From positions 1 to 36,451 of the forward strand of contig DATLUO010000040.1 of assembly GCA_035533075.1 (NCBI GenBank): a stretch of DNA of 36,451 bases, written 5' to 3'. The translations under genes were made by a program, and so were the position numbers. This DNA is from Pirellulales bacterium (GTDB taxonomy: Bacteria > Planctomycetota > Planctomycetia > Pirellulales > JAICIG01). Every line of letters begins with the position of its first letter. Within the stretch, counting starts at the first letter, position 1. Under the pieces are notes generated by a model. The model saw only the letters and a program-made list of their open reading frames with translations. It searched no databases and was not told the origin of the DNA. Below, one piece after another: positions 791 through 15,423 of the stretch.

Positions 791-1977
791 GCGCCGCGGG
801 CGATTGGAATGCGAGCTTGCCGGCCGAGAGGTACTGTGATGCCGTCGTGATTGGCGCCGGACCCGCGGGGTCGATGGCGGCCCGAGAGTTGGCGCGGCGT
901 GGCATGCGCGTCTTGCTGGTGGAACGAAAAACACTCCCGCGTTCCAAGGTCTGTGGGGCCTGTCTCAACCAGCGGGCGGTGTCGTGGCTGGAGTTGGCGG
1001 GCCTGAGCCATGTATTGCCGCAGCTCGGCGCCGTGCCCACGAAACGCTTCCGGGCATGTTGCGGCCGGCGGAGTGTCGAGATCGAGTTGCCCGGCGGGGC
1101 CGCCGTTTCGCGCGAGTCGTTCGATTTCGCCCTTGCACAGGCGGCCGTCGACTGCGGCGCTCAACTCTTGACCGGCACCACGGCAATGTTGCGAGACGTC
1201 GGAAGCGATGCCGGCGGCCGCGAAATCGAGTTGCGCGGCCCTGCCGGCAACACGCGGACGATTCAGGCGGGTGTCGTGCTGGCGGCCGATGGCTTGGCAC
1301 ACCCGTCGCTCGCTCAATGCCGTGAATTCGCGTGCCGCGTGCCGCGCGGCGCCAAGCTGGGAGTGGGCACGCGGACCGTCGACGCGCCACAGAGCTTTCA
1401 ACCGGGCACGATTTATATGGCCATCGGTCGAGGCGGCTACGCCGGCCTTGTTCGCCTGGAAGACGGCAGCCTCAGCCTGGCGGCCGCCGTCGTGCCGCAA
1501 GCAATCAAACGTGCCGCATCTCCCGCGGCCGCCGTCGCCGCAATTCTCGCTGAAGCGGGAATGCCGGAGTGCGGTCTCGCCGCGGCCGGTCCGTGGCAAG
1601 GAACGTTGCCGCTGACGCAGTCCACCCCGCGTCCCGTCGGACACCGCGTCTTGGTGTTGGGCGATGCCGCGGGCTATGTCGAGCCCTTCACGGGCGAAGG
1701 CATTGCGTGGGCGCTGTCCGGCGGCCTGGCAGTGGCCGAGTTTGCCGAGCGCGGCCTGTGCGAATGGAACGCTCACGTGGAACAAGGCTGGTTGCACGCC
1801 TATCGCCGGCTGGTCCGCGACCGCCAACTCTGCTGCCGGGGATTTGCCGCGGTGTTGAGGCACCCGTCGATCGCCAGGATGGCGGTCCAACTCGCGTCGG
1901 CCTGGCCGGCAGTGTGCCGGCCGATTGTTCGCACTCTAAATCGTCCTGTACGGCCCCTGGAGCTTTGCCAATCATGA
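787..1977 (+). CDS. FAD-dependent oxidoreductase (geranylgeranyl-reductase/hydroxylase-like)
   Basis: Predicted flavoprotein monooxygenase or reductase of 396 residues. The N-terminal dinucleotide-binding motif is VVIGAGPAGSMAARELA (about residues 20-36), followed by the acidic strand end VLLVER. A KVCGACLN segment resembles the Cys motif after the first Rossmann unit in geranylgeranyl-reductase-like proteins. A second FAD motif, VLGDAAGYVEPFTGEGIAWAL, begins near residue 289 with its Asp at about 292. Start: the ATG at 787 overlaps the upstream stop and is preferred to an in-frame TTG at 751. Its TGA overlaps the ATG of the PKS gene (1974-1977). Position between a methyltransferase and a type III PKS suggests oxidative tailoring (ring hydroxylation or quinone formation) of a polyketide. 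That role is inference; the flavoprotein fold is clear. Confidence 0.88.
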   Translation: MSAAGDWNASLPAERYCDAVVIGAGPAGSMAARELARRGMRVLLVERKTLPRSKVCGACLNQRAVSWLELAGLSHVLPQLGAVPTKRFRACCGRRSVEIELPGGAAVSRESFDFALAQAAVDCGAQLLTGTTAMLRDVGSDAGGREIELRGPAGNTRTIQAGVVLAADGLAHPSLAQCREFACRVPRGAKLGVGTRTVDAPQSFQPGTIYMAIGRGGYAGLVRLEDGSLSLAAAVVPQAIKRAASPAAAVAAILAEAGMPECGLAAAGPWQGTLPLTQSTPRPVGHRVLVLGDAAGYVEPFTGEGIAWALSGGLAVAEFAERGLCEWNAHVEQGWLHAYRRLVRDRQLCCRGFAAVLRHPSIARMAVQLASAWPAVCRPIVRTLNRPVRPLELCQS

Positions 1978-3077
1978 GTCTACACCTGGAAGCGATCGGC
2001 ACCGCTGTGCCGCGGCACTTTATAGAACAAACGGACGCCGTGGAAGTGGCCCGCGACTTTTGTGCGTCGTCGTGCGTGCAACCGCGCGTGCTGGCCAGAC
2101 TTTATGCGCGCTCCGGAGTGCGGACGCGGCACAGCGTCGTGTTGCGAGAATCCACCAATGGCGCTCCGGCGAACCAGTCGTTTTATTTGCCGGCCAGCGG
2201 CGTCGACGATCTTGGCCCCACCACGGCCGAACGGATGCGCGTCTATGAAGAAGCGGCTTCGCAGCTAGGCGTGAGGGCCGGCGCCGATGCGCTGGCGATC
2301 GCCGAGACCGCTCCGCGCGAAGTCACGCATTTGATTACGGTTTCCTGCACCGGCTTTCATTCGCCGGGCGTCGACGTGGCCCTGGTCCGCGAATTGGGGC
2401 TGGACGCCGGCGTGGCCCGCACGCACGTCGGTTTCATGGGCTGCCATGCCGCGCTCAATGCGCTGCGCGTGGCGAAGGCGTTCACGGACTCGCGCCCCGA
2501 GGCCTGCGTGCTGGTGTGCGCGGTCGAACTTTGCAGCTTGCACTATCAATATGGTTGGGACCCGGACCGGCTTGTCTCCAACGCCCTGTTCGCCGACGGC
2601 GCCGCGGCGGTGGTGGCCCGCAGTTCGCTTGGCTCGAAGGGAGGCCAGCCAGGCGGATGGCAGCTTATCTCTTCGGCATCGGCCATAGTGCCCGAAACGG
2701 AGGACGCCATGCGCTGGCATATCCGCGATCACGGCTTCGAGATGGGCCTTTCGGCGCGAGTGCCGGACTTGATCCGCGAGAGGCTGCGGCCGTGGCTGGC
2801 ATCGTGGCTGGCGGATGCGGATTTATCGATCGAGGAGGTGGGATCGTGGGCGATTCATCCGGGCGGGCCGCGCATCTTAACGGCCTGCGGCCTGGCCTGC
2901 GATTTGAGCGAACCGGAGCTGCGCGCCTCGGCCGACGTGCTGGCGGAGTACGGCAACATGTCGTCGCCCACGATCTTATTCATTCTGGAGCGATTGCGCC
3001 GCCAATCGGCGGCCGGCCCCTGCGTGGCGCTGGCCTTTGGTCCGGGGTTGACCATCGAGGCCGCCTTGTTCCATTAA
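1974..3077 (+). CDS. Type III polyketide synthase (chalcone/stilbene synthase family)
   Basis: Homodimeric ketosynthase-like enzyme that extends an acyl-CoA starter with malonyl-CoA units and cyclises the chain. The 367-residue protein has the full catalytic triad: Cys125 in TVSCTGFHSPG, His295 in SWAIHPGGPRIL and Asn328 in EYGNMSSPT, plus a C-terminal GPGLTIEAALF of the family's GFGPG type. Length is normal for bacterial members. The start at 1974 is fixed by an ATGA overlap with the oxidoreductase; the longer frame upstream is an out-of-frame shadow of that gene. A PKS, a methyltransferase and an FAD enzyme together match known phenolic-lipid pathways such as Streptomyces griseus srsABC. 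Product identity (alkylresorcinol, alkylpyrone or alkylquinone) cannot be read from sequence. Confidence 0.93.
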   Translation: MSLHLEAIGTAVPRHFIEQTDAVEVARDFCASSCVQPRVLARLYARSGVRTRHSVVLRESTNGAPANQSFYLPASGVDDLGPTTAERMRVYEEAASQLGVRAGADALAIAETAPREVTHLITVSCTGFHSPGVDVALVRELGLDAGVARTHVGFMGCHAALNALRVAKAFTDSRPEACVLVCAVELCSLHYQYGWDPDRLVSNALFADGAAAVVARSSLGSKGGQPGGWQLISSASAIVPETEDAMRWHIRDHGFEMGLSARVPDLIRERLRPWLASWLADADLSIEEVGSWAIHPGGPRILTACGLACDLSEPELRASADVLAEYGNMSSPTILFILERLRRQSAAGPCVALAFGPGLTIEAALFH

Positions 3078-4259: not shown

Positions 4260-4281
4260 GGCTGGAAAATGGGGTCGGGGA

Positions 4282-4307
4282 AAAGGGGAGAAGTAATTAT
4301 TGACTCC
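4282..4307. repeat. Direct repeat, left copy
   Basis: Reads AAAGGGGAGAAGT then AATTATTGACTCC. The right copy at 4809-4836 is identical except for two extra bases (CC) in the middle. The pair brackets the 500-bp non-coding stretch. Confidence 0.75.
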
Positions 4308-4588
4308 GCAACGTATGCCCGACGCGCTGCGGCACCTCCCGCGCCCATCACGAGTGCCCTTGGAATCGTCGCGACTTCGGTTTTCGGCACGGCTTCCCCG
4401 AGGTTGAGCGTAGTCGGCAGGCCAGCGGCGCGGCCGACACGAAAACCCTCAAAGCCAGCCCTACGGTAGGAACGACGTAGGCGGACGATCGAGGGCGGGC
4501 GGTGGGCGGCCGATGTCGGAACGTCGCAAGTCGAAGCAGAAAAAGCATTTACGTCGATCGTGCCGGGTGGCGCCGCACCCGCGTCCGC

Positions 4589-4630
4589 GCCGAAACAAAA
4601 GCGCCGCGCGCGCGGCGCTTTTGTTTCGGC
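4589..4630. repeat. 42-bp perfect palindrome
   Basis: Two 21-base arms with no spacer: the left arm runs GCCGAAACAAAA then GCGCCGCGC, and 4610-4630 is its exact reverse complement. No T-run follows on either strand, so it is not a classical intrinsic terminator. Possible roles are a protein-binding site, a REP-like unit or the core of a mobile element. Confidence 0.8.
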
Positions 4631-4808
4631 ACGCGCCGCCCGCGGCGCGCGGCACGCGCTGGAGGTGCTCCAGGACCTCAACGTGCCCCTGACGGACGTC
4701 CAAGCGAAGCCGCGCCGCGGCTTCCTCTCATTGCCCGACGGCGGAGGAGGCCAGGGATTCCGGCCGCATCGCCGGTTCTGCCGGCACGTTTTCGGTCTCG
4801 GCCGGGCC

Positions 4809-4836
4809 AAAGGGGAGAAGTCCAATTATTGACTCC
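4809..4836. repeat. Direct repeat, right copy, overlapping the end of the HtrA-like gene
   Basis: Second copy of the repeat at 4282-4307, with an internal CC insertion. Its right end covers the TAA stop codon (4826-4828) and the last codons of the minus-strand HtrA-like gene, so the repeat forms that gene's 3' end. Confidence 0.75.
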
Positions 4837-5917
4837 CTACCGGATACTTGTCCGGCGCCGCCAACTCGAACTCGATGAGTTGCCGCCCGCGAAGGACGGT
4901 GATCTTCACCTTGTCGGCACGATCGATGCGTCCCATTTCGGCCGCGAGCGCCTGACACGATTGCACCAGATGGGTGTTGAGGAAAATCAGCAGGTCGTCG
5001 GCCGAGAGACCCGCGGCGGCGGCGGGCGAGTTCGGCAGCACGCGCTCGACGTAAGGCGGCGTGCGGTCAAGCACGTCGGGCACCATCACCAGCCCGAGCG
5101 AGGCGAGATCCAAGGGGTGCTTTGGCTTCGTGCCGTCGTCGGTCGACGAGGCGGGCACAAACTTGCCCGCACGAATCGCGTCGACGGTGCCTAGGATCTC
5201 CGGCACCGGCACGGCATAGTTCAGCCAGGTGTTGCTGAGCGCGTTGCGCAGCTCTTTGCCCAACATGCCGACCAGCCGGCCCTGAGCGTCGGTCAAGGCG
5301 CCGCCCTGGGCGCCGGGATTGTTGGTCATGGCGTCGAGAATGTAAGCCATGCCGTGATAAGGCGTCTCGAAACGCCCCCGCCTGGCTTCCAACGGGGCCT
5401 TCACCGCCACAATGCCGTGTTGCACGCTGACCGGTTCGTTGCCGGTGGCCACGCCAAACAGGTTGCTGAAGGCCAGCACGCGGGATCCCGCTGCCACGTC
5501 CTGCGATTGCGTCAGATCGAAGTGCGGCAAGCCGGTGGCGTCGATCTTGAGCACGGCCACCTCCAACCGCGGGTCGGCGCCAAGCAGCTCGGCGTCGAAC
5601 TTTCGCCCGTCGTCGAGCGTCACGCCCACGTATTGCGTGTCGAGCACGTAGCTCCAGGCAGTCAGGATGTGGCCCTCGGCAGAAATCAGAAAACCGCTCT
5701 GATAGGCCTCGAGGCCGCGGAAGCCGCCGGCACCGTAGATTTTGACGATCTTCGGCTCGACCTCTTGGACCACCTTGGCCAGCGAACCCGCGGCCATAGC
5801 CGCGGGGGCAGGATACGATGAAGCGCAGAGGGCCGCTACCAAGGGTAGAACGTACAAATTGCAAATTGCAAATTGATGTGGCTGACGCCTGACGCCTCGT
5901 TCCTGACGCCTGATCAT
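4826..5917 (-). CDS. HtrA-like pseudoprotease with PDZ domain
   Basis: Predicted periplasmic HtrA/DegP-fold protein of 363 residues that should not be a serine protease. Against its active neighbour, the three catalytic positions differ. The His loop reads GHILTAWSYV (Ser at about 89). The Asp strand reads LEVAVLKI (Glu119). The Ser loop reads NNPGAQGGALTD (Gln204 in place of the nucleophile). Glycines and flanking hydrophobics of the fold are kept, and a PDZ-like domain covers roughly 265-350 (VLPNSPAAAAGLSADDLLIFLN). An N-terminal hydrophobic stretch (LYVLPLVAALCASS) is probably a signal peptide. The ATG at 5917 overlaps the upstream TGA, but the first 20 codons lie in short tandem repeats, so a TTG near residue 21 is an alternative. 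Likely a regulatory or substrate-binding partner of the active protease (inference). Confidence 0.85.
   Translation of the reverse strand: MIRRQERGVRRQPHQFAICNLYVLPLVAALCASSYPAPAAMAAGSLAKVVQEVEPKIVKIYGAGGFRGLEAYQSGFLISAEGHILTAWSYVLDTQYVGVTLDDGRKFDAELLGADPRLEVAVLKIDATGLPHFDLTQSQDVAAGSRVLAFSNLFGVATGNEPVSVQHGIVAVKAPLEARRGRFETPYHGMAYILDAMTNNPGAQGGALTDAQGRLVGMLGKELRNALSNTWLNYAVPVPEILGTVDAIRAGKFVPASSTDDGTKPKHPLDLASLGLVMVPDVLDRTPPYVERVLPNSPAAAAGLSADDLLIFLNTHLVQSCQALAAEMGRIDRADKVKITVLRGRQLIEFELAAPDKYPVGSQ
5855..5875. repeat. 7-bp tandem array, three exact units
   Basis: Three perfect copies of CAAATTG (+ strand) inside the proposed signal-peptide region of the HtrA-like pseudoprotease. Together with the array at 5883-5913 they suggest the N-terminus of that gene was built from spacer repeat DNA. 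Confidence 0.85.
5883..5913. repeat. 7-bp tandem array (TGACGCC)
   Basis: Units in register: TGACGCC, TGACGCC, TCGTTCC (degenerate), TGACGCC, TGA. The array sits directly downstream of the HtrA stop codon and codes the first residues of the next gene if the ATGA start is used. Confidence 0.85.
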
Positions 5918-7713
5918 TCTACGTGCTCCTTCCAACTTACATCGCTGAACGCGAACAGCCCGTAAACGTGGTCGCCGTAGCGGACCAACATCCGCGCGGG
6001 AACCTCGCGGCCATCGACCTCGCGATAGTCGGCAAAGTGCAGCTCGCAGGGATCGTCGTCGGGGTGCAGGTAAAGCTCCACGACGAGCAGGTGGCCGGAG
6101 GTGGCGTCGATGAGGAAATTGCACTCCACGCCGCCGAAAGTGCCGCTGAGCATATCGACCAGGCCCGCGTGTCCGGCCAGCGGCCCGGCTGGACCGCTCA
6201 GGGGCAGAGTGCCGTAGTATTCGACGCTGCCGAACTCTTCCGGACCCTTCACCAGCAAGCGGCGCCAAAGATAGAGCGCGGCCAGCAGGCCGCCGCTGCC
6301 CGGTGGAACAGCCGCGCCGACGAGATTATCGTCGATCGGTAAACTGGCTTTGCCGCCGGGCAAGCTGCACGCCACCAGATTCTCGGAGATGCGGAACTCG
6401 CTGTCGCCCGCTTCCATCAGTTGCCCGCGCAACACCCACTCGCCGGTCAGCGACGCGAAGTCGCCGCGGACGGTCAGCGTTTTCCACACGCGGTCGCGGT
6501 TGAGGCGATTGTAGTAGTAGTTGGCGTAGCCGCGTCGCGCGTCGTAGTGCTGTTTGACCACGGCGGGCACTTCGGCCTTCGGCTTTTCAGGCACGATGAT
6601 CGGCGGCGGCGGGCGATCTTCGTCGTCCTTTTTGTCTTTGGGCTTTTCCGGACGCTTCGGCCTGGGAGCGGGTGGTTCGATGGCGGGCTTACCCGTCACC
6701 TTGTCGATCAACTCCTGGGCGCCGTGTACGCCCGCCAAACGCACCAGCACGTCGTGGCGCTCGCCACGGCGTCGATACGAGAGCGGCACGCGCCAGCCCT
6801 TGGGAAAGGTGCCCAGCACGTTCTTGAAGGCGTTGACTGTTTGAATCGGGCGGCCGCCGAATTCGAGCACTTCGTCTCCGTAGCGCAGTCCGCGGCGAAA
6901 GGCGTCGCAGGTATCGAGCACGTCGGCCACGAGCACGCGGCCGTCTTCCTGGCTCGCCAAGCGGGCGCCGAGCGTGGCGTGATCGACAATCCGCCCGCTG
7001 CGCAGGCAGCCCATGAAGTTTTTGATCTGGTTGATGGAGATGGCGTAGCCGACGCCCACGTTCACGCGGCCGCGTTTTTCGAACGAGCCGCGGCCGTTGA
7101 TGCCGATCAGCCGTCCCTCGCTGTCGAACAGCGGCCCCCCGGAATTGCCGGGATTGATGGAGGCATCGGTCTGGATGCAGTCGGCGTATTCCAGCAGCGT
7201 GCCCGCCGGATACTGATAGCGATGCACTCCTGAGACGATGCCGTAGCTGACGGTTGGTTTGAAATTCGTGGCCAACAAGAAGGGGTTTCCGATGACGAAC
7301 ACCCAGTCGCCGGCCGACACGTGATCGCTGTCGCCCAACGCGGCGGTGGGAAAGTCGTCTCGGCCGAAGAGTTGAATCAGGGCCACGTCGCCGACCGGGT
7401 CGATGCCGACGACCGCCGCGTCGTACAGACCGCCGTCGGCCATGCCGCACCTGACGCCTTCGCCGGCGCCGGCCACCACGTGGAAGTTGGTCAGCGCGTA
7501 GCCATCAGGCGAAATGACCACGCCCGATCCGCCGCCCTGACCCTGATTGGTGAAGATGGCGACGGCGGCCTGTTGAGCTTTGGCCACCACCGCCACGCGC
7601 TGCGCTTCGGCTTCGAGCACGGCGCCATCGACATCCGCGCGGGCGGGCAGCGCGGCCCAAAGGAGCATCCCCAGGGCGCCCAGCATACTTCTGCCAATCG
7701 AACGGCCGTTCAC
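5914..7713 (-). CDS. HtrA-type serine protease with PDZ domain and unknown C-terminal module
   Basis: Exported trypsin-fold protease of 599 residues, long for the family. A signal peptide (MLGALGMLLWAALPARA) is followed by the protease domain. The triad is His78 in ALTNFHVV, Asp109 in PVGDVALIQL and Ser191 in INPGNSGGP. A PDZ domain spans roughly 246-328 (RRGLRYGDEVLEFGGRPI). A Pro/Lys/Asp/Glu-rich linker occupies 340-388. The last ~210 residues form a folded-looking module (GDFASLTGEWVLRGQLMEAG onward) that I do not recognise. HtrA proteins act in envelope protein quality control and stress signalling. The ATG at 7713 overlaps the upstream NPCBM gene's TGA, and its own TGA overlaps the start of the catalytically dead paralogue, which implies coupled expression of the pair. 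Confidence 0.92.
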   Translation of the reverse strand: MNGRSIGRSMLGALGMLLWAALPARADVDGAVLEAEAQRVAVVAKAQQAAVAIFTNQGQGGGSGVVISPDGYALTNFHVVAGAGEGVRCGMADGGLYDAAVVGIDPVGDVALIQLFGRDDFPTAALGDSDHVSAGDWVFVIGNPFLLATNFKPTVSYGIVSGVHRYQYPAGTLLEYADCIQTDASINPGNSGGPLFDSEGRLIGINGRGSFEKRGRVNVGVGYAISINQIKNFMGCLRSGRIVDHATLGARLASQEDGRVLVADVLDTCDAFRRGLRYGDEVLEFGGRPIQTVNAFKNVLGTFPKGWRVPLSYRRRGERHDVLVRLAGVHGAQELIDKVTGKPAIEPPAPRPKRPEKPKDKKDDEDRPPPPIIVPEKPKAEVPAVVKQHYDARRGYANYYYNRLNRDRVWKTLTVRGDFASLTGEWVLRGQLMEAGDSEFRISENLVACSLPGGKASLPIDDNLVGAAVPPGSGGLLAALYLWRRLLVKGPEEFGSVEYYGTLPLSGPAGPLAGHAGLVDMLSGTFGGVECNFLIDATSGHLLVVELYLHPDDDPCELHFADYREVDGREVPARMLVRYGDHVYGLFAFSDVSWKEHVE

Positions 7714-8897
7714 TGCAAAATCCTTGCGTCACAAAGGTCGAACAGGTCCATGACTTCCCCGTTGGCGCCGAAATCGGCCACGATTTTCACTCGTCTCACT
7801 CCGCTCACATCCAGGTCGATGGCCAGCGGCTCCTGCGTGCCGGTCACGTCGGTCTCCAACAGCGGCTTGTCGTCGCCATAGATCGCCAGTCGCACCGCGC
7901 CGTCGGGCCGGGCACGCGAATCGATGCCCGCCACCGCCGTCAACCGCTTGAACTCACCCGCCGGCAACCGATACACGATCTCGCTGCGGCTGCATAACGC
8001 GACTCCCTTGGCGAAAACCGTGCCGCCGATCTTCAAATCTCCGCCGTCCAGAGCCTCGTTGAACCTGGGCCTGAACCAACGAGCCACCGAAGCCGGCAGG
8101 TTGGGACCCGAAACGTAAGCCTTCCAAGTCGCCGATTCCGGCTCCAGGTCGCTAAGATATTGTACCCGCGCGGTGATGGCCGCGAGTTGATCCAGCGGAA
8201 CTTCCTGTTTTAGCCCGGCCGGGGTCGTCACTCGCAGGCTGCCGCCGGCGAGCGTGGCTTCGCTGACTTCCAGGCGCGAGCCCGACGCATCGACAAGCTG
8301 GCAGATGCTGGCCGGCAGCTTTTTGCCCGACGGGTGGTAATAGACCATGCCGGCGACTTTCGAGCGTTTGACCGCGAGTTTTTCGTCGTCGAGCGTAAAG
8401 GCGACGGTCGTATCGGTTATGTCGCCGAGCACGCCCGGCTGATAGTCGAGCGCGCCCTTTTTATGGACCACGATCAGATCGCCCGCGGCCTCGCTGCCGA
8501 CGATTTTGCCCCACTGCGAGGCCAACTCAGGGTTGAACGGCTGAAAGCGGACATGCCCGACGGCGGCGGTCGCCAGCTCGACGACCCGCTTATCGGTCAA
8601 CTGAATGCGTGCGGTCCGCTCCGCTACGGTGTACTGCGTGGCAACAAGCTGCGAACCATCGTTCAACTCGATCCAGGCGGCAGGCTTCTCGTCGGGCACG
8701 CTCGGCTTGGCGACGCGCGAGACGTCCGAAAGCCTGGCCAGCGGAACGGTCAAACGCATCTGGGGAGTTTCAAAGGCCACGCCCTCGGCGTCGATGCCGA
8801 CAAGCTCACCATAATAGGTTTGCCCGTCGGTGGTCTGCAACTGAAACTCCGCGTCGGACGTCATGGCCAACGCCACCAAACACGCGATAGAGATCAT
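7710..8897 (-). CDS. Exported protein with C-terminal NPCBM/NEW2 domain
   Basis: Predicted secreted protein of 395 residues. A short signal peptide (MISIACLVALAMTSDA) precedes several repeated beta segments that alternate 'DGSQL', 'LDQLAAI' and 'VPLARLSDV' phrases, as in planctomycete SH3-like or SLA1-like repeats. The last ~130 residues fit an NPCBM carbohydrate-binding jelly roll (KIGGTVFAKGVALCSRSEIV, then FKRLTAVAGIDSRARPDGAV and an IVADFGANGEVMDLFD ending). Such domains usually bind glycans or cell-surface polymers. Start: ATG at 8897, one codon after an in-frame TTG, with AAAGG about 10 bases upstream. It ends in an ATGA overlap with the HtrA gene. Envelope function is inferred from context. 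Confidence 0.82.
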   Translation of the reverse strand: MISIACLVALAMTSDAEFQLQTTDGQTYYGELVGIDAEGVAFETPQMRLTVPLARLSDVSRVAKPSVPDEKPAAWIELNDGSQLVATQYTVAERTARIQLTDKRVVELATAAVGHVRFQPFNPELASQWGKIVGSEAAGDLIVVHKKGALDYQPGVLGDITDTTVAFTLDDEKLAVKRSKVAGMVYYHPSGKKLPASICQLVDASGSRLEVSEATLAGGSLRVTTPAGLKQEVPLDQLAAITARVQYLSDLEPESATWKAYVSGPNLPASVARWFRPRFNEALDGGDLKIGGTVFAKGVALCSRSEIVYRLPAGEFKRLTAVAGIDSRARPDGAVRLAIYGDDKPLLETDVTGTQEPLAIDLDVSGVRRVKIVADFGANGEVMDLFDLCDARILQ

Positions 8898-8923
8898 CAA
8901 GGCTTACCTTTCATAAGGGTCGA

Positions 8924-8994: not shown

Positions 8995-10042
8995 TTTGCT
9001 CTGTCTCAGCCGCCAGCTTCCGAAAGTATTGCTCGATCGCGTCGCGATAGTGAGGCGGAAAATCCTTGCCGATCTGCTGCAATGCCTCTTCGCGCTGCTT
9101 GGGCGGCAATTCGCCCCAGCCCGAAGTGTTGCCAATGCGGCGGCGATCGACGTCGCCCGCTCCCTGCATGCGCGCAATGCGGCTGTCGGGCATGGCCTGC
9201 TGAGGCTGCGGCATCGCGCCGGCTCCCGCGGAATTCTGCGACTGCTTCGATCGGTCTTCCATTTCCTTAATCAGTTTATCGAGCGCGGCAATCACGTCGT
9301 CTTCCACCTGCCGCACTTTCTTGCCGGCACGCCCCAAGGCGAGTCGCCGCCGCACGTCCTCCATTTGCCTGGAAATGTGATCGAGCGATTCGTCCTTGAG
9401 CGCGTCCAGATCGCTCTTCATCAGGGCCGCGATCGACCGATAGCGGTGGGGTATCCCAGAAACGTTATCCAACAAGGTCTGAATGGCCTTGAGCCCGTGC
9501 TCTTTGTCGAGCAGCCGGTGATAGACCACGGCTTGGTAAAATAAAAGGGTCGCGGGATCGACGACGTCACCGGGCACCAGTTCGCCAAGCTGGGCAAGCG
9601 CCTCGTCATACAGCCGCTCCTGGGCCAGCCATCGCCCATAAATTAGGCGTAAGTTGTTGCGCTCGAAGGCAGGCAGATCCTCGCTTTTCAGCCATTCTTG
9701 AGGAGCCAGCGGGCCGATTGGGCGAGGCTTGGCAGCGAGCGCCGCCAGTGACGCCGCCCGTTCGTCGGCGAGAGCAAATGTGCTGGCCAACCGGTCGAGC
9801 AGGCCGGTCTGTTGTCCGTCTTGCCAGAGCTGCTGGGCGGCCTGCCGCGTGGCGTCGTCGCCTTGCCGCGCCGACAGCCACTCCATCGCCTTTTGGCGAA
9901 CCTCCTCAACGCTCGCGGGCCTGAACTTCGGCTCGCTGTTCAGCGCGCCAATCTCGGCGACTCCGGCCGCGCGCACCGCAACAGCGCCGCAGACGACCAG
10001 CAGCACGATCGAGGCCGCACATCGCCGATTTGACCCGTTCAT
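8990..10042 (-). CDS. Exported helical protein of the envelope operon, function unknown
   Basis: Unrecognised secreted protein of 350 residues. A signal peptide is visible (AASIVLLVVCGAVAVRAAG). The body is almost entirely alpha-helical with TPR-like phrases (NNLRLIYGRWLAQERLYDEALAQLGEL, then ATLLFYQAVVYHRLLDKEHG). A coiled-coil segment (IAALDKLIKEMEDRSKQSQ) leads into a low-complexity QPQQ tract and a C-terminal GELPPKQREEALQQIGKDFPPHY-type motif often seen at the ends of planctomycete proteins of this context. ATG at 10042 overlaps the TGA of the upstream coiled-coil gene. The protein may be a scaffold; no catalytic motif is visible. Confidence 0.8.
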   Translation of the reverse strand: MNGSNRRCAASIVLLVVCGAVAVRAAGVAEIGALNSEPKFRPASVEEVRQKAMEWLSARQGDDATRQAAQQLWQDGQQTGLLDRLASTFALADERAASLAALAAKPRPIGPLAPQEWLKSEDLPAFERNNLRLIYGRWLAQERLYDEALAQLGELVPGDVVDPATLLFYQAVVYHRLLDKEHGLKAIQTLLDNVSGIPHRYRSIAALMKSDLDALKDESLDHISRQMEDVRRRLALGRAGKKVRQVEDDVIAALDKLIKEMEDRSKQSQNSAGAGAMPQPQQAMPDSRIARMQGAGDVDRRRIGNTSGWGELPPKQREEALQQIGKDFPPHYRDAIEQYFRKLAAETEQR

Positions 10043-11853
10043 TCGTTTTTCCCCAGCACAATGTCTCGCGTTGTCCGATAAATCCGCTCTTCTCGCTGGC
10101 TGAGCTTCTCCAGTGCTTCAAGCAACTCGGCCTTGTCCGCCTGGCCCTCGTCGCCATCCACCAGCTTGGCATAGTTGGCGGTGCGCTTGTTGACCCGCAT
10201 TTGCAAGGCACGGATCATCTTCAGCTCGGCGATGGCATCGACCAGCGGCGGCTCTTGTTGCTCGCCCGCCTGCTGTTGTTGCTGTTGCTTCTTTTCTTCA
10301 TTTTCTTTCTGGGCCTTTTGGAATGCGGCAATCATCTCCTCCAGTGCGGCCAGGATGTCTTGCTCGGTCAACTGTGTGATCTGGTCGACCTTGGCCTCTG
10401 CCAGGCGCGCCGCCACCTGCTCCATGTCTTCGCGCAACTCGTGGACGGCCTCCGGGAATGCAACTGACGTGCCGTCCTCGCGCAAGAGCATTTCCGCCCC
10501 CGACAGTTCTTCGAGAATGGCCCGCTCGTGCCGGCTTAGCCGCCCGGCCTCAATTTCCTCATTCTGCGTGCGGTCTTCCAGCTTGACGCGGTCGACGCGG
10601 ACGGTGCCTTCGTAAACTTCGGTCTGCATTTGCAGCATTTTGCGGAAGCGGGCTTCGAGCAAGGCTAACGAACGCTCGACTTCTTCTTCGCGAAGCTGTC
10701 GCAGCACCTCTTCGAGCCGGGCCTTGGCCTCTTCCAGCTTGCGGCGGGCCTGTTCCTGGTCTTCCGCGGCTCCCTCGCGCTTGGCTTGTTCGAGCTTCTT
10801 GCGGGCCTCATCCATCGCCTGTTGGGCCTCGCGCACCCGTTGCCGGGCGGCCTCGCTATCGGAGGGCGGCGGCTGGTCCGATTGACTTTGCTCTCCCGCC
10901 GGGGTTTCACCGGGCGGCGGCTGCTGGGGCTGACCGCCCTCTTGCGGCTGACCGGGCGATTTCTGACCGTCGGCCGGTTTTGATTCTTGTGGCGACTGGC
11001 TCTTGCCGTCGGCCGGCTTTTGCTCGCTTTCGTCGGCCGGTTTCTTTTCTGATTTCTTTTCTGTGCCGGACGACTTTTCGTCACCGCCGTCCTTAGGTTG
11101 ACCGTCCTGGCCCTGGCCTTGCTGTCGGTTGTCAGCGTGCTCGCCGCTCTTCTCCTTGTCGTCTTTCCGGTCGTCTTTTTGGTCGTCCGGAGATTTGCGA
11201 TCGGAGTCGTCGTCCGATGGTTTGCGTTCCTTCTTCGATTTCGAATCGGCATCGGGCGCGTCGCTCATATCTTCAGCCAGCTTGCCGGTCTGCTCGCCGA
11301 GCTTGCCTTGGCTTGGAGCGAGTTTCTTGGGATCTCCGCTGCCCTGAGTCTGGCCTTGGAGTTGTTGCTGCTTGTTGATCAGCTCGTTGATGCGGCGGAT
11401 CTGCTCCTTGATGCGTTCGCGCTCGCTCTTCAGTCGGTCCGCGCGCTGCTCGCTGAGCAGCAAATCGAGCAGTTGCTTGAGGTCCCCTTCGACCTCCTTT
11501 TGGTTCGTGACGGCGGTGGCCAACTGGTCGCGCTTGAGCAAGTCGACCAGGCGGTCGAACTGGACGCCGATCAGTTTGTCTTTGCTCTGACCGACGGCTT
11601 TGCGGAGCAGGGCCGCCCGTTTGGGATCGCTCGCGGCCGTCAGTTCCGACATCCGCAGCAGCACCTCCTCGAAGCGCTGATACTTCCGCAGCACCTGCTC
11701 CTGGGACAGCGGCAGCTCGGCGGCCTTGTCGGGCTCGGCCACTTCTGGCCTGGCCGGAGGTTCATCGGCTGGGTCGGCCAGCACGAGTCGAGACGGAACC
11801 GCCAGCACGCTAGAGAGGAAAACGATCTTGAGGATTATGCACCCGACCTTCAT
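10039..11853 (-). CDS. Exported coiled-coil protein with K/D/Q/P-rich low-complexity centre
   Basis: Unrecognised secreted protein of about 604 residues. The start at 11853 gives a clean signal peptide (MKVGCIILKIVFLSSVLAV, then LADPADE) with GGGGA about 7 bases upstream; an in-frame start at 11883 lies in the less likely leader. A helical coiled-coil block (about 40-165) is followed by a 150-residue hydrophilic tract rich in Lys, Asp, Gln, Pro and Ser (KPADESEQKPADGKSQSPQ type). A second coiled coil (EAQQAMDEARKKLEQAKREG) and a helical C-terminus with a run of seven Gln complete the protein. The overall design (helix, disordered spacer, helix) suggests a structural tether in the periplasm. 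Its 3' end overlaps the next gene by ATGA. Confidence 0.82.
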   Translation of the reverse strand: MKVGCIILKIVFLSSVLAVPSRLVLADPADEPPARPEVAEPDKAAELPLSQEQVLRKYQRFEEVLLRMSELTAASDPKRAALLRKAVGQSKDKLIGVQFDRLVDLLKRDQLATAVTNQKEVEGDLKQLLDLLLSEQRADRLKSERERIKEQIRRINELINKQQQLQGQTQGSGDPKKLAPSQGKLGEQTGKLAEDMSDAPDADSKSKKERKPSDDDSDRKSPDDQKDDRKDDKEKSGEHADNRQQGQGQDGQPKDGGDEKSSGTEKKSEKKPADESEQKPADGKSQSPQESKPADGQKSPGQPQEGGQPQQPPPGETPAGEQSQSDQPPPSDSEAARQRVREAQQAMDEARKKLEQAKREGAAEDQEQARRKLEEAKARLEEVLRQLREEEVERSLALLEARFRKMLQMQTEVYEGTVRVDRVKLEDRTQNEEIEAGRLSRHERAILEELSGAEMLLREDGTSVAFPEAVHELREDMEQVAARLAEAKVDQITQLTEQDILAALEEMIAAFQKAQKENEEKKQQQQQQAGEQQEPPLVDAIAELKMIRALQMRVNKRTANYAKLVDGDEGQADKAELLEALEKLSQREERIYRTTRDIVLGKNE

Positions 11854-11905
11854 GTTCGATCCCCGCGTAAGCTTAGCCATCATCTTAGTTTAGGCGTTTA
11901 CATCG

Positions 11906-12019
11906 CATTGGTCCATCACGTGGATCATCCGTATGCAGGACGTTCATGCGGGTCGGTGTTTCCGCTATGGGGCGACCGTCTCCCGTGGGATAGTCGATTG
12001 TGATAGGCGTTGTGGCCAT
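11906..12019 (-). pseudogene. Uma2-family N-terminal fragment (duplicate of neighbouring gene)
   Basis: The minus strand reads MATTPITIDYPTGDGRPIAE, closely matching the first residues of the intact Uma2 gene whose ATG is at 12788. The match then continues only after a frameshift (LIRMIHVMDQ versus LIRMIHVLDH) and stops after about 38 codons. The rest of the gene is missing. It is a truncated duplicate in the 212-bp spacer between the Uma2 gene and the coiled-coil gene. Confidence 0.85.
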
Positions 12020-12065
12020 TGTTTGCTCCACTCTGCATCTCTAAATCCAAGACAGTGAACGACCG

Positions 12066-12788
12066 CTAAGCGTCGTCTTCGGTGTGCCGGCCGTTGCCTC
12101 CCTGCTGGCGTTCCAGTTCCGCGAGCCTGCGCCGCAAGCGTTCGGCTTCTTGCTCGGCCCGCAGGCGTCCCTCCCGCTCCCGAAGACGCTCCTCTTCGGA
12201 CCGCGCTAGCTCCGCTTCGGTCTTCGTAAGCAGGCACTTGCCGGTCGCGGGGTTGTAAATCTGCAACTCTTCCCCCACCGCCTCGAACTGAGGCCCCTCG
12301 AGCACTTCGCTGGGCAAGCGGCCATCGACGGCTTCCATCGGCACGTATTGCCCCTCTTGCAGCCGAAAACCCTGCAACCGCGGCTTCAGATACTCGCCGC
12401 GCGGGTCGAACAGATAGTATTCCCGTACCCGCAGCACGTCCCGATACAGAGCGTGCTTTTTCCGCTGGTCCTCGCGCCGCGTCGACTTGCTCGTCACTTC
12501 GATCACCAGATCGGGGCCGCGGCCGCCTTCCTCCCAAGTGAAATAGGCGTCGCGCCGCTTGTCTTTCGGTATGCCCAAGGTCACAAACACGTCGGGCGAC
12601 ACGTGCTGACGCGGATTACCCTCGACGTAGTACATCAACATGTTGCCCGCGACATAGACGTTGGAGTCTTCCTCGAACCAGTGATCGAGCACGTGGATCA
12701 TCCGAATCAGGACGCTCTGGTGGACCGGTGTTTCCGCCAAGGGACGACCGTCTCCTGTGGGATAGTCGATTGTAGACGTCGTGGCCAT
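12066..12788 (-). CDS. Uma2-family (PD-(D/E)XK fold) putative endonuclease
   Basis: Cytosolic Uma2-like protein of 240 residues. Motifs of the nuclease core are present: VSPDVFVTLG (Asp) and DLVIEVTSKST (Glu and Lys of the ExK signature), followed by the family phrase YRDVLRVREYYLFDPRGEYL. The C-terminus has a charged coiled coil (EEERLREREGRLRAEQEAERLRRRLAELE) typical of planctomycete and cyanobacterial members. The start at 12788 (MATTSTIDYPTGDGRP) is favoured over an upstream ATG at 12815 because the truncated copy at 11906-12019 begins at the same residue. Uma2 genes are highly multiplied in these genomes and their role is unsettled. Here the gene interrupts an otherwise continuous envelope operon, which suggests insertion. 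Confidence 0.9.
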   Translation of the reverse strand: MATTSTIDYPTGDGRPLAETPVHQSVLIRMIHVLDHWFEEDSNVYVAGNMLMYYVEGNPRQHVSPDVFVTLGIPKDKRRDAYFTWEEGGRGPDLVIEVTSKSTRREDQRKKHALYRDVLRVREYYLFDPRGEYLKPRLQGFRLQEGQYVPMEAVDGRLPSEVLEGPQFEAVGEELQIYNPATGKCLLTKTEAELARSEEERLREREGRLRAEQEAERLRRRLAELERQQGGNGRHTEDDA

Positions 12789-12827
12789 CGCTTCGCTCCC
12801 TAACGCCCCCCTCACAGTTTACGCCCG

Positions 12828-15065
12828 TTAATCCTCGTCATCCAAGAGCGATCGCAGCTTTTTGCCGCGTTCTTTCTTGGTTTGTTCCGACACCTGCTGC
12901 TGCGCGGCAATGATCTCGCGCAACAAGTCAACCGCCTCGTTGAAACTTTCCAACTGCAGCATCTGGTCGCGCACCTTTTGCAGGGCCACGATCATAAGGT
13001 CCGCTTGCTCGATGGCCGGCTTGGCGGCATCGGTGTGCGCGGCACTGCCCGCCAGTTGCTTCTTTAGCGTCGCCAGGCTGCGGCCGAGCTGGGCGAATTG
13101 CACGTCGACGATCTGTTTGAGCGGACCGGAGATGCGGTCTTTGAGCCGGATGCGCAGCTCTTCGGTATCGACGCGGTTATTGACCAGCTCGTCACGGATA
13201 TCGTCGAACGCCACCGCCACGCCGCGCGTCTCTTCGGCATTTTTCTGATTGTTCTGCTCGGCACGCTCCACTCGCAACAAGTTGCGCTGCAAAACGGTTT
13301 CCGCGGCGGCCTCCTGTTCTGCATCCGCCGGCGGCTTCTCGGCCCGTTCGCTCGGCGCTGTTTCCAGTGCCGCCAACGAATCGCGCGTGTCCGTGACTTC
13401 TTGAATGATCGTTTCGAAACGCTGACGCAAGTTCAGCTCGCGCGTTTCCATCAGTGCCAGCAACTGGTCGGGGGTGACGACGTCGAGCAAAAAACGCTCA
13501 CCCTGGGCGACGTTCGGCTCGTCGGCGGCAGGCGGCGCACGGTTGTCAGCGGCTCGCGCGCCCACCAGCAGCTTCTGGCCGGGCTTAAGCTCCAATTGCG
13601 CCACTTCGAACGGAAGATCCACATCCACCTGGCTGCGGCTGGCCGGACTGGCCAGATCGCTCCGGCGTGGGTCATCGTCGTCGATGGTGTATTCCAGCCA
13701 GATATGGTCGACGCCGTAATCGTCTTCAACTCGCCCCTTCAGCGGCAGCCGCGCTTGCGGCGTAATGGCCGAGCCGATGCCCTCGATACGCACGTCGACT
13801 TGCGGCGGCTCGTCGGCCACGGCGGTCAAGGCGAGCTGGATCGGGCCGCGGTTGGCCACGCCGTCGGCGTCGAGCAGCGAAAACGAAAACGTCTGGTCCG
13901 ACGCCAGCCGGTCGATGGTGAAATGGAAATCGCGGCCTCCGTCGAGCACAAACTTGCGGGTCTGCGGCGCGTCGTCCGCCAGGTAGTCGATCTGTGCCTG
14001 ACGCAGGTTCTTGGTCGCGTGGGCCCGCACTTTGATCCGAGTGCCGATGGGCAAGGGCATCACGCCCGTCACCGGCACTTCGGCGGCGGCCCGTTTCATA
14101 TAAGCCGGGTACTCGCACGCCAGGGTCAGGCCGAGATTCGGGCTTTCCACCACCCGCAGCCGCAGACCGCGCAGCCGTGCGTCGCCGCCCACCACGTCGA
14201 AGGCGACGCCCGACAACACACTGCTGAAGGTATAGCGGTAATCCTGAAACGCGTTCTCGCCCGGCGCGGCGGTGCCTTCGCGGACCATCATGCCGCGGTC
14301 TCGCTTGCCGTCGTCGGTGCGGTAGCCGACTTCGACGACCTGCGGCACCACGCGTCCCGGCGCGGCATCGGCCTGCACGTGGATTTCGAAGTCCATGCCG
14401 CGAGCCACCACCTGCTCGCGCTGCGGATTGTCGAAGCCCTCGATCCGCAGGTGCGTGTTGCGGGGCCACGGCTCGTCGGTGATCGTAGTCAGCCGCCGCA
14501 GGCCAAACCGCAGCATGTCGGGCGAAGCGACGGCGGCGGCGACGAGGGAAACCAAAATCGCGCCGGAGGCAATCCATGCCCGGCCAAGGGGACGGAAGCT
14601 GAATACGGCGCCGAGCTGCACGTTACGCGACCGTCGGTCGGCCTCGCGGCAGGTCTCCGTCAACATTTGCCGTCCAAACTCGTCGATCTCGGTCGCCGGC
14701 TCTCGCGGCGAGGTCAACTCGACCGCGGTCACCAGGCTGTCTTGCAGGTTGCCGAACCGCCGCTCCAACAAAATGGCCATGCTGTGGTCGCTCAGCCGGG
14801 CCAAGAGACGTCGCAGCAGAAACCAGACCGCCGACGCCACGCCCGCCACACCGATCGTCGCCAGTAGCCCGTAGCGCACCGCGCGGGGAGGCTCGAAGAA
14901 CCAGTCGGCGCCGAGCGCCAGCCAGAACGACGCGCCCACCACGGCGATGGTCGCCGCCAGCCCCTCATACCAAACATAGCGGCGGATGCGGCGGCGCAGT
15001 GCGGCCAGGAGTTGGCGAATGCCGGGAGCGATTTCGGGCGAAGGTTCCGTGACCATGAGTTCCAT
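12828..15065 (-). CDS. DUF4175-like large membrane protein, head of the envelope operon
   Basis: Inner-membrane protein of about 745 residues. Two adjacent transmembrane helices lie near the N-terminus (GLAATIAVVGASFWLALGA and GLLATIGVAGVASAVWFLL), with a third around residue 180 (WIASGAILVSLVAAAVA). Between them is a cytosolic helical segment (LERRFGNLQDSLVTAVEL). A long periplasmic part follows with Ig-like beta domains (VGYRTDDGKRDRG; LEYTIDDDDP). The C-terminal 200 residues are coiled coil (LREIIAAQQQVSEQTKKERG). The layout matches DUF4175/BatA-context planctomycete proteins. Start: ATG at 15065 or at 15056; the long upstream frame reaches into the divergent lipoprotein gene and is rejected. 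It is transcribed divergently from the lipoprotein/DUF4129 pair. Confidence 0.82.
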   Translation of the reverse strand: MELMVTEPSPEIAPGIRQLLAALRRRIRRYVWYEGLAATIAVVGASFWLALGADWFFEPPRAVRYGLLATIGVAGVASAVWFLLRRLLARLSDHSMAILLERRFGNLQDSLVTAVELTSPREPATEIDEFGRQMLTETCREADRRSRNVQLGAVFSFRPLGRAWIASGAILVSLVAAAVASPDMLRFGLRRLTTITDEPWPRNTHLRIEGFDNPQREQVVARGMDFEIHVQADAAPGRVVPQVVEVGYRTDDGKRDRGMMVREGTAAPGENAFQDYRYTFSSVLSGVAFDVVGGDARLRGLRLRVVESPNLGLTLACEYPAYMKRAAAEVPVTGVMPLPIGTRIKVRAHATKNLRQAQIDYLADDAPQTRKFVLDGGRDFHFTIDRLASDQTFSFSLLDADGVANRGPIQLALTAVADEPPQVDVRIEGIGSAITPQARLPLKGRVEDDYGVDHIWLEYTIDDDDPRRSDLASPASRSQVDVDLPFEVAQLELKPGQKLLVGARAADNRAPPAADEPNVAQGERFLLDVVTPDQLLALMETRELNLRQRFETIIQEVTDTRDSLAALETAPSERAEKPPADAEQEAAAETVLQRNLLRVERAEQNNQKNAEETRGVAVAFDDIRDELVNNRVDTEELRIRLKDRISGPLKQIVDVQFAQLGRSLATLKKQLAGSAAHTDAAKPAIEQADLMIVALQKVRDQMLQLESFNEAVDLLREIIAAQQQVSEQTKKERGKKLRSLLDDED

Positions 15066-15090
15066 TCTACTCGATTCGCCGCCCCGCGGG

Positions 15091-15109
15091 TCAGGCGTTT
15101 CAGGCGTCG
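15091..15109. repeat. Short tandem repeat TCAGGCGTT/TCAGGCGTC
   Basis: Two 9-bp units just upstream of the DUF4175-like gene. The sequence is related to the reverse complement of the TGACGCC array at 5883-5913 but has a 9-bp period. Confidence 0.6.
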
Positions 15110-15145
15110 CGTGATCCCGCCTGTGTGATTTGCGCTCTGCAGACG

Positions 15146-15151
15146 ATATAA
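15146..15151 (+). promoter_or_regulatory. Candidate -10 element of the lipoprotein/DUF4129 pair
   Basis: Perfect TATAAT in the 121-bp divergent spacer, 35 bases before the lipoprotein ATG. No good -35 hexamer is visible at 16-18 bases, so this may be a weak or activator-dependent promoter, or chance. Confidence 0.35.
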
Positions 15152-15186
15152 TTGCTGTCAGGCAACCAACTGAAGAGCATACTTTC

Positions 15187-15423
15187 ATGAGGCGAGCAAT
15201 CCACTTTCTGGGTCGATTATCGGTGCTCATCGGCGCCTGCCTGACGGCCGGCTGCGAACCGCCGCCGCCCAAGCCGCAGGATTTGGGGCGCATTATGTAT
15301 AACCCCGCGGAAGTTCCCGGCACGGACCAGCCTTACGCGCTGCCGGAGTACCTGCGCAACATCCAGCCCGAACAGCCAGAACTGCCAGAACATCCTGAGG
15401 AAGGGCGGCCGCGCGGCGAATAA
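15187..15423 (+). CDS. Small lipoprotein
   Basis: Lipoprotein precursor of 78 residues. The basic N-terminus and hydrophobic core (MRRAIHFLGRLSVLIGA) end in a lipobox LTAGC, with Cys at residue 24. The mature part is a short Pro/Glu-rich chain (EQPELPEHPEEGRPRGE) without a folded-domain signature. The ATG at 15187 is chosen over an upstream frame start at 15130 because it places the signal peptide at the N-terminus. The TAA shares a base with the next ATG (TAATG, 15421-15425), so translation of the two is likely coupled. The small size and coupling suggest an accessory subunit of the DUF4129-like membrane protein (inference). Confidence 0.82.
   Translation: MRRAIHFLGRLSVLIGACLTAGCEPPPPKPQDLGRIMYNPAEVPGTDQPYALPEYLRNIQPEQPELPEHPEEGRPRGE

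Follow-up and report, generated by a model that had tools for sequence, protein, structure and literature searches.

HtrA proteases have usually been studied as homo-oligomers, and the envelope biology of the Planctomycetota is poorly understood. In magnetotactic bacteria, active and dead copies of HtrA have been paired independently, and the dead HtrA MamO is needed in a non-catalytic manner for proteolysis by MamE, that is, it activates MamE (PMC4794232). Some cyanobacterial Deg proteins are also inactive (PMC4877387). In Clostridioides difficile, the active protease CspB is encoded as a fusion to the dead CspA, followed by the dead CspC, and the two dead proteins bind each other, and not the active one, in pull-downs (PMC12880746). 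Here we describe a planctomycete trio composed of one active HtrA and two dead paralogues, which we call PSEUDO1 and PSEUDO2. No published description of a planctomycete active/dead HtrA trio was found in the literature searched. We consider it probable, at about 0.6, that the trio represents an ancient planctomycete envelope-protease module, in which two non-catalytic pseudoprotease subunits gate one active HtrA.

The window, which is the whole 36,451-nucleotide stretch of DNA that was analyzed, is contig C40 of an 8.5-Mb assembly of a Pirellulales bacterium. It contains the genes of the active HtrA and PSEUDO1, which are joined by an ATGA overlap, as the earlier note had claimed (Table 1). 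The catalytic residues His78, Asp109, and Ser191 that it had assigned to the upstream protein are present in the sequence and invariant in the five closest orthologues, and the complete triad is found in 91 of 91 distinct orthologues in which all three sites are covered. Two candidates for active proteins lacking the triad, L115 and L116, proved to be artefacts, in which the best match was PSEUDO1 and the true active gene is located elsewhere in the genome. The C-terminal domain of the active HtrA was predicted by AlphaFold with pLDDT values mostly of 70–90, and the model can be superimposed on the structure 3bk5 with a Z-score of 12.6 and rmsd of 4.0 over 179 aligned residues. This LolA-like fold suggests that the domain binds lipid-linked or hydrophobic ligands. 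The PDZ domain of the active HtrA was also modeled well, and the protease domain poorly. The prediction for PSEUDO1, based on an alignment of six rows, has a pLDDT of 40, and its PDZ domain alone is usable. Both proteins are predicted to be secreted, and PSEUDO1 contains a single N-terminal hydrophobic segment.

Table 1. Positions of the described features in the window
Feature	Position	Strand	Description
Inverted repeat, near-perfect, 24-nt arms	4586..4633	.	Between convergent PSEUDO1 and PEP-CTERM genes
PSEUDO1, 363 aa	4826..5917	-	Signal-peptide-like N-terminus, trypsin-like domain (about 74-218), one PDZ domain (about 287-352)
PSEUDO1 Gln204 codon	5306..5308	-	Catalytic Ser position; Ala in most orthologues
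PSEUDO1 Glu119 codon	5561..5563	-	Catalytic Asp position
PSEUDO1 Ser89 codon	5651..5653	-	Catalytic His position
ATGA overlap	5914..5917	-	Stop of active gene and start of PSEUDO1
Active HtrA, 599 aa	5914..7713	-	Signal peptide, trypsin-like domain with His78/Asp109/Ser191, PDZ domain (247-325), linker, C-terminal domain
Active HtrA C-terminal domain, residues 402-599	5917..6510	-	Lipoprotein-sorting (LolA-like) fold; predicted structure
Active HtrA Ser191 codon	7141..7143	-	Catalytic
Active HtrA Asp109 codon	7387..7389	-	Catalytic
Active HtrA His78 codon	7480..7482	-	Catalytic
Predicted secreted NPCBM-domain protein	7710..8900	-	Upstream of active HtrA, with GTGA overlap; conserved neighbour
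Predicted secreted operon protein, 350 aa	8990..10042	-	Conserved
Predicted secreted coiled-coil-like operon protein, 614 aa	10039..11883	-	Conserved
Membrane-anchored operon protein, 831 aa	12828..15323	-	Conserved

The two window proteins match the families Trypsin_2 (PF13365; E-values of 9.7e-22 and 1.3e-33) and PDZ_2. The regions matched to the structures of DegP, DegQ, and DegS span most of these structures, so that the catalytic columns can be placed with confidence. Residues Ser89, Glu119, and Gln204 of PSEUDO1, located in the motifs ILTAWSYVLD, DPRLEVAVL, and NNPGAQGGAL, align to the catalytic His, Asp, and Ser, respectively, in agreement with the proposed replacement of all three. Conservation in PSEUDO1 covers the fold glycines and the PDZ domain, both of which the earlier note had pointed out, as well as the NNPG.xGG loop, and it includes no catalytic residues. 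A CAATTTG(CAATTTG)n repeat at positions 5849-5875 lies inside the signal-peptide region of PSEUDO1 and is confined to window-derived loci among the 234 loci fetched.

Orthologues of PSEUDO1 are present in 219 of 247 Pirellulales genomes (about 89%, E ≤ 1e-30), many of which are MAGs, in a search scoring the best few candidates per genome, and they also occur in other planctomycete classes. With a phylum-wide profile, the orthologues of 46 genomes (E ≤ 5e-68) were clearly set apart from other HtrAs, which gave E ≥ 8e-54. A pattern-based scan of 84,980 species, the reach of which is limited to close relatives, recovered only planctomycete orthologues and one ordinary HtrA with 31% identity. As far as the searches reached, the trio appears to be restricted to planctomycetes. 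The extracted set comprises 135 distinct PSEUDO1 sequences, 129 of which cover all three triad sites. Orthologues with an intact triad, set beforehand as the observation that would speak for decay, were sought in this set, and not one of the 129 sequences retains two or more canonical residues; 101 retain none, and in 28 there is a single one, nearly always the Asp. The loss of the triad is conserved, whereas the exact combination Ser/Glu/Gln is not: the commonest set is Ser/Glu/Ala, and that of the window is one variant. The His site is occupied by Ser, Asn, Gly, Thr, and other residues, the middle site is Asp or Gly in many orthologues, and Gln at the Ser site is shared by the window PSEUDO1, its nearest relative, and several distant orthologues.

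In relatives, another HtrA-like gene, that of PSEUDO2, is positioned directly after PSEUDO1. The coupled pair described in the earlier note is real, but the complete unit is a trio, the second dead member of which is encoded on another contig, C262, in the window genome. In PSEUDO2, the trypsin-like domain is accompanied by two PDZ domains and a C-terminal region, and the protein matches PF13365 and PDZ_2 above the gathering score, as do PSEUDO1 and the active HtrA. The nucleophile site is Tyr, within the motif NYGG, in 125 of 125 distinct PSEUDO2 sequences, and none of them has a full triad or even two canonical residues. The loss of PSEUDO2 from the window genome, suspected from its absence downstream of position 4826, was ruled out by the intact copy at G000:C262:4198-6204 (L141), which is located beside an unrelated gene, contains Asn/Met/Tyr at the triad sites, and is 63% identical to its relative. 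An imperfect 22-nt direct repeat (window positions 4273-4294 and 4800-4821) flanks the place where relatives have PSEUDO2, and is a possible scar of the rearrangement that moved the gene.

Because the triad is missing from all 129 PSEUDO1 and all 125 PSEUDO2 sequences, both proteins can be classified, as judged from sequence, as non-peptidase homologues. Hidden catalysis by either of them using other residues is very unlikely. It would find support in the Cys at the Ser site of a few PSEUDO1 proteins from g91 genomes (L159, L161, L176, and L177) and in the Ser of L154; however, a general base is missing, as the His site of PSEUDO1 holds His in one of the 129 sequences, and at the nucleophile site most PSEUDO1 sequences have Ala or Gln and all PSEUDO2 sequences have Tyr. 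L154, L159, and L161 have Thr at the His site, which is not covered in L176 and L177.

The dN/dS ratios, determined by the NG86 method for close pairs after exclusion of one very close pair (dS of about 0.1) and of pairs in which dS was saturated, are 0.033-0.134 for PSEUDO1 and 0.027-0.135 for PSEUDO2, not far from the 0.020-0.068 obtained for the active protein. In the PMSF tree of 78 sequences, the active, PSEUDO1, and PSEUDO2 proteins form three clades with supports of 100/100, 100/100, and 100/99, respectively, each of which covers several classes. The two triad losses can therefore be explained most simply as single and old events. The possibility that PSEUDO1 is a copy of the active gene that has recently begun to decay, in favor of which nothing was found beyond the triad loss itself, was rejected and retains almost no probability: the dN/dS ratios are far below 1, the dead clade is monophyletic across classes, and most Pirellulales genomes have kept the gene. 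The same observations, together with the lack of intact triads, bear out the selected non-catalytic role that the earlier note had proposed for PSEUDO1.

The genes are arranged in the order active HtrA, PSEUDO1, PSEUDO2 in 82 of the 85 distinct loci with wide flanks. In the three exceptions, one of which is the window, the cluster is split, yet all parts are kept; in genus g118, the three genes lie apart from one another, and none has been lost. Among the 247 Pirellulales genomes, 214 contain all three members, 24 none, and nine a partial trio, mostly in fragmented assemblies of MAGs. The pairwise Fisher p values for the co-occurrence are below 1e-25, and ignore shared ancestry. At the scale of the phylum, PSEUDO2 is present in 46 of 46 genomes with PSEUDO1, and one genome has PSEUDO2 only. 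An active/dead pair, which had been considered unusual, is thus the rule in Pirellulales and not an oddity of the window genome.

In about four lineages, the active HtrA and PSEUDO1 are fused in one open frame. The fusions were found in Pirellulales f6 g66 (five genomes, L093-L096 and L192), in Pirellulales f17 g69/g91 (L158, L159, and L161, with L173 identified from partial matches that are weak), and, in other classes, in two families (L074/L064 and L092). The linker of the L093 fusion is without a signal peptide. The fusions favor, short of proof, a physical association of the active HtrA with PSEUDO1; however, the loss of a stop codon is enough to fuse neighboring genes that share a frame, which counts against equating fusion with association.

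The trio is accompanied across planctomycete classes by the 831-, 614-, and 350-aa operon proteins (window 10039-15323), which have no Pfam family above the cut-off and belong to an uncharacterised envelope system; the 831-aa protein has no NCBIfam family either. A gene for a putative nuclease of the Uma2 family (12066-12815) separates the 831-aa and 614-aa genes in the window, whereas the two directly adjoin in the relatives examined for synteny. No flagellar genes were identified among the annotated conserved operon neighbors. The inverted repeat downstream of PSEUDO1, with arms that are 96% complementary, no loop gap, and a folding z of -4.55, is a probable bidirectional terminator, which would make PSEUDO1 the last operon gene in the window. 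Elsewhere in the window, the plus strand encodes a chalcone/stilbene synthase-like type III polyketide synthase (1569-3077). The operon behaves as one module, because 21 of the 24 trio-less genomes also lack the 350-aa gene (E > 1e-6), and of the matches in the remaining three, two are marginal. Since the co-occurrence extends to this upstream operon gene, the three HtrA-like proteins may act in a common pathway and yet not bind one another.

The co-loss of the whole operon, beyond the trio, from most trio-less genomes also speaks for the main rival explanation, in which PSEUDO1 and PSEUDO2 are a scaffold or receptor for other envelope or operon proteins, such as the coiled-coil and NPCBM proteins, and the active HtrA is merely an operon-mate. 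The binding would be mediated by the PDZ domains and trypsin-like surfaces, as in PflC of the Campylobacter motor, an inactivated HtrA that serves as a structural lattice (PMC11482838). The C-terminal region gained by PSEUDO2, with a weak esterase-like match (NCBIfam, E 3.8e-7, below the cut-off), fits this explanation as well. In contrast, the repeated fusion of PSEUDO1 to the active HtrA and the strict adjacency of the three genes point to the active HtrA as the partner, and we regard the scaffold or receptor role as possible rather than probable.

The preservation by selection of dead copies beside an active HtrA suggests that they control or build the working HtrA, as in the gated module that we prefer. 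PSEUDO1 and PSEUDO2 would be made together with a single secreted HtrA serine protease whose C-terminal domain is LolA-like, and would bind to it or to each other. The dead subunits would then gate the activity of the HtrA and its recognition of substrates or signals via their trypsin-like scaffolds and PDZ domains, in a complex with one catalytic subunit and two that regulate it or serve as a scaffold. We infer both the complex and the gating from sequence comparison, and the binding of the dead Csp proteins to each other without the active partner counts against such a module. We more tentatively consider that the three proteins assemble into an obligate mixed HtrA complex, possibly as a 1:1:1 heterotrimer that has only one active site; its dead subunits would sense a ligand or stress and switch the third. 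Such an assembly, if it exists, would represent a naturally occurring heteromeric HtrA that incorporates pseudo-subunits, that evolved independently of the Csp and Mam systems, and that has been conserved in several planctomycete classes. The position of DegP Tyr163 and HtrA2 Phe256, which we take to be part of the HtrA trimer core, although no literature support for this aromatic position was found, is occupied by Trp/Arg/Trp in the active HtrA, PSEUDO1, and PSEUDO2, respectively, in 51 of 103 trios. This pattern would fit a mixed assembly, but descent is a confounder, and the pattern is no more than suggestive.

A role in the binding of metals or other ligands, with the control of proteolysis being secondary, has a precedent in the second function of MamO (PMC4794232). 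It is improbable for the trio, since PSEUDO1 and PSEUDO2 have no conserved pair of His or Cys residues (the best columns reach 48% and 61%, respectively); the di-histidine metal motif of MamO is absent, with His columns of at most 48% in PSEUDO1 and 29% in PSEUDO2.

As a phylum-level module of one active and two conserved dead paralogues, some of them fused, the trio provides a test case for the control of active enzymes by pseudoenzyme relatives. It adds an independent case of the pairing of active and dead proteases to those of the magnetosome and Csp systems, and it provides a first point of entry to an uncharacterised envelope operon that is conserved in Planctomycetota.

The trypsin-like and PDZ architecture of the trio is common to DegP, DegQ, and DegS. 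All three proteins have the trypsin-like domain followed by PDZ that is characteristic of HtrA/DegP (MEROPS S1C), and the active member keeps the His-Asp-Ser triad (91/91), unlike PSEUDO1 and PSEUDO2. The scores against the Do family model TIGR02037 are 114.7 for PSEUDO1, 220.5 for the active HtrA, and 190.4 for PSEUDO2, below the curated cut-off of 416.2. In Arabidopsis, the HtrA paralogues Deg5 and Deg8 act as a 1:1 hetero-oligomer, built from homotrimers, and, unlike in the trio, the assembly of which is a proposal, both keep the triad (PMC4877387, PMC3640471). PflC resembles the dead members of the trio in its HtrA fold, PDZ domains, lost triad, and conserved non-catalytic role, but it is a component of the flagellar lattice, and the accessible part of its description contains no operon pairing with an active HtrA (PMC11482838).

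Similar to the trio, MamE, MamO, and the inactive MamE copies of magnetosome islands are active and dead HtrAs that are encoded together and that arose, as the trio probably did, by duplication followed by triad loss (PMC4794232). The active member of that system requires the dead one non-catalytically (PMC4794232), which for the trio we infer from sequence. The trio differs in its two dead partners, phylum-wide conservation, and lack of magnetosome context, and PSEUDO1 is without the TauE-like C-terminal multi-pass membrane domain of MamO. Judged by the low scores against the MamO family NF040961 (44.4 for PSEUDO1, 53.7 for the active HtrA, and 27.8 for PSEUDO2, with a curated cut-off of 800), and by scores that are also far under the MamE cut-off, the trio probably originated separately from the Mam proteins. 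CspBA-CspC of C. difficile has one active and two dead proteases per locus and an active-dead fusion, as in the trio (PMC12880746), but its members have a subtilisin fold, function in spore germination, and belong to a family unrelated to the trio, which is trypsin-like by Pfam; the resemblance is one of design and not of descent. The trio resembles both MamE/MamO and the unrelated CspBA-CspC, and belongs to neither.
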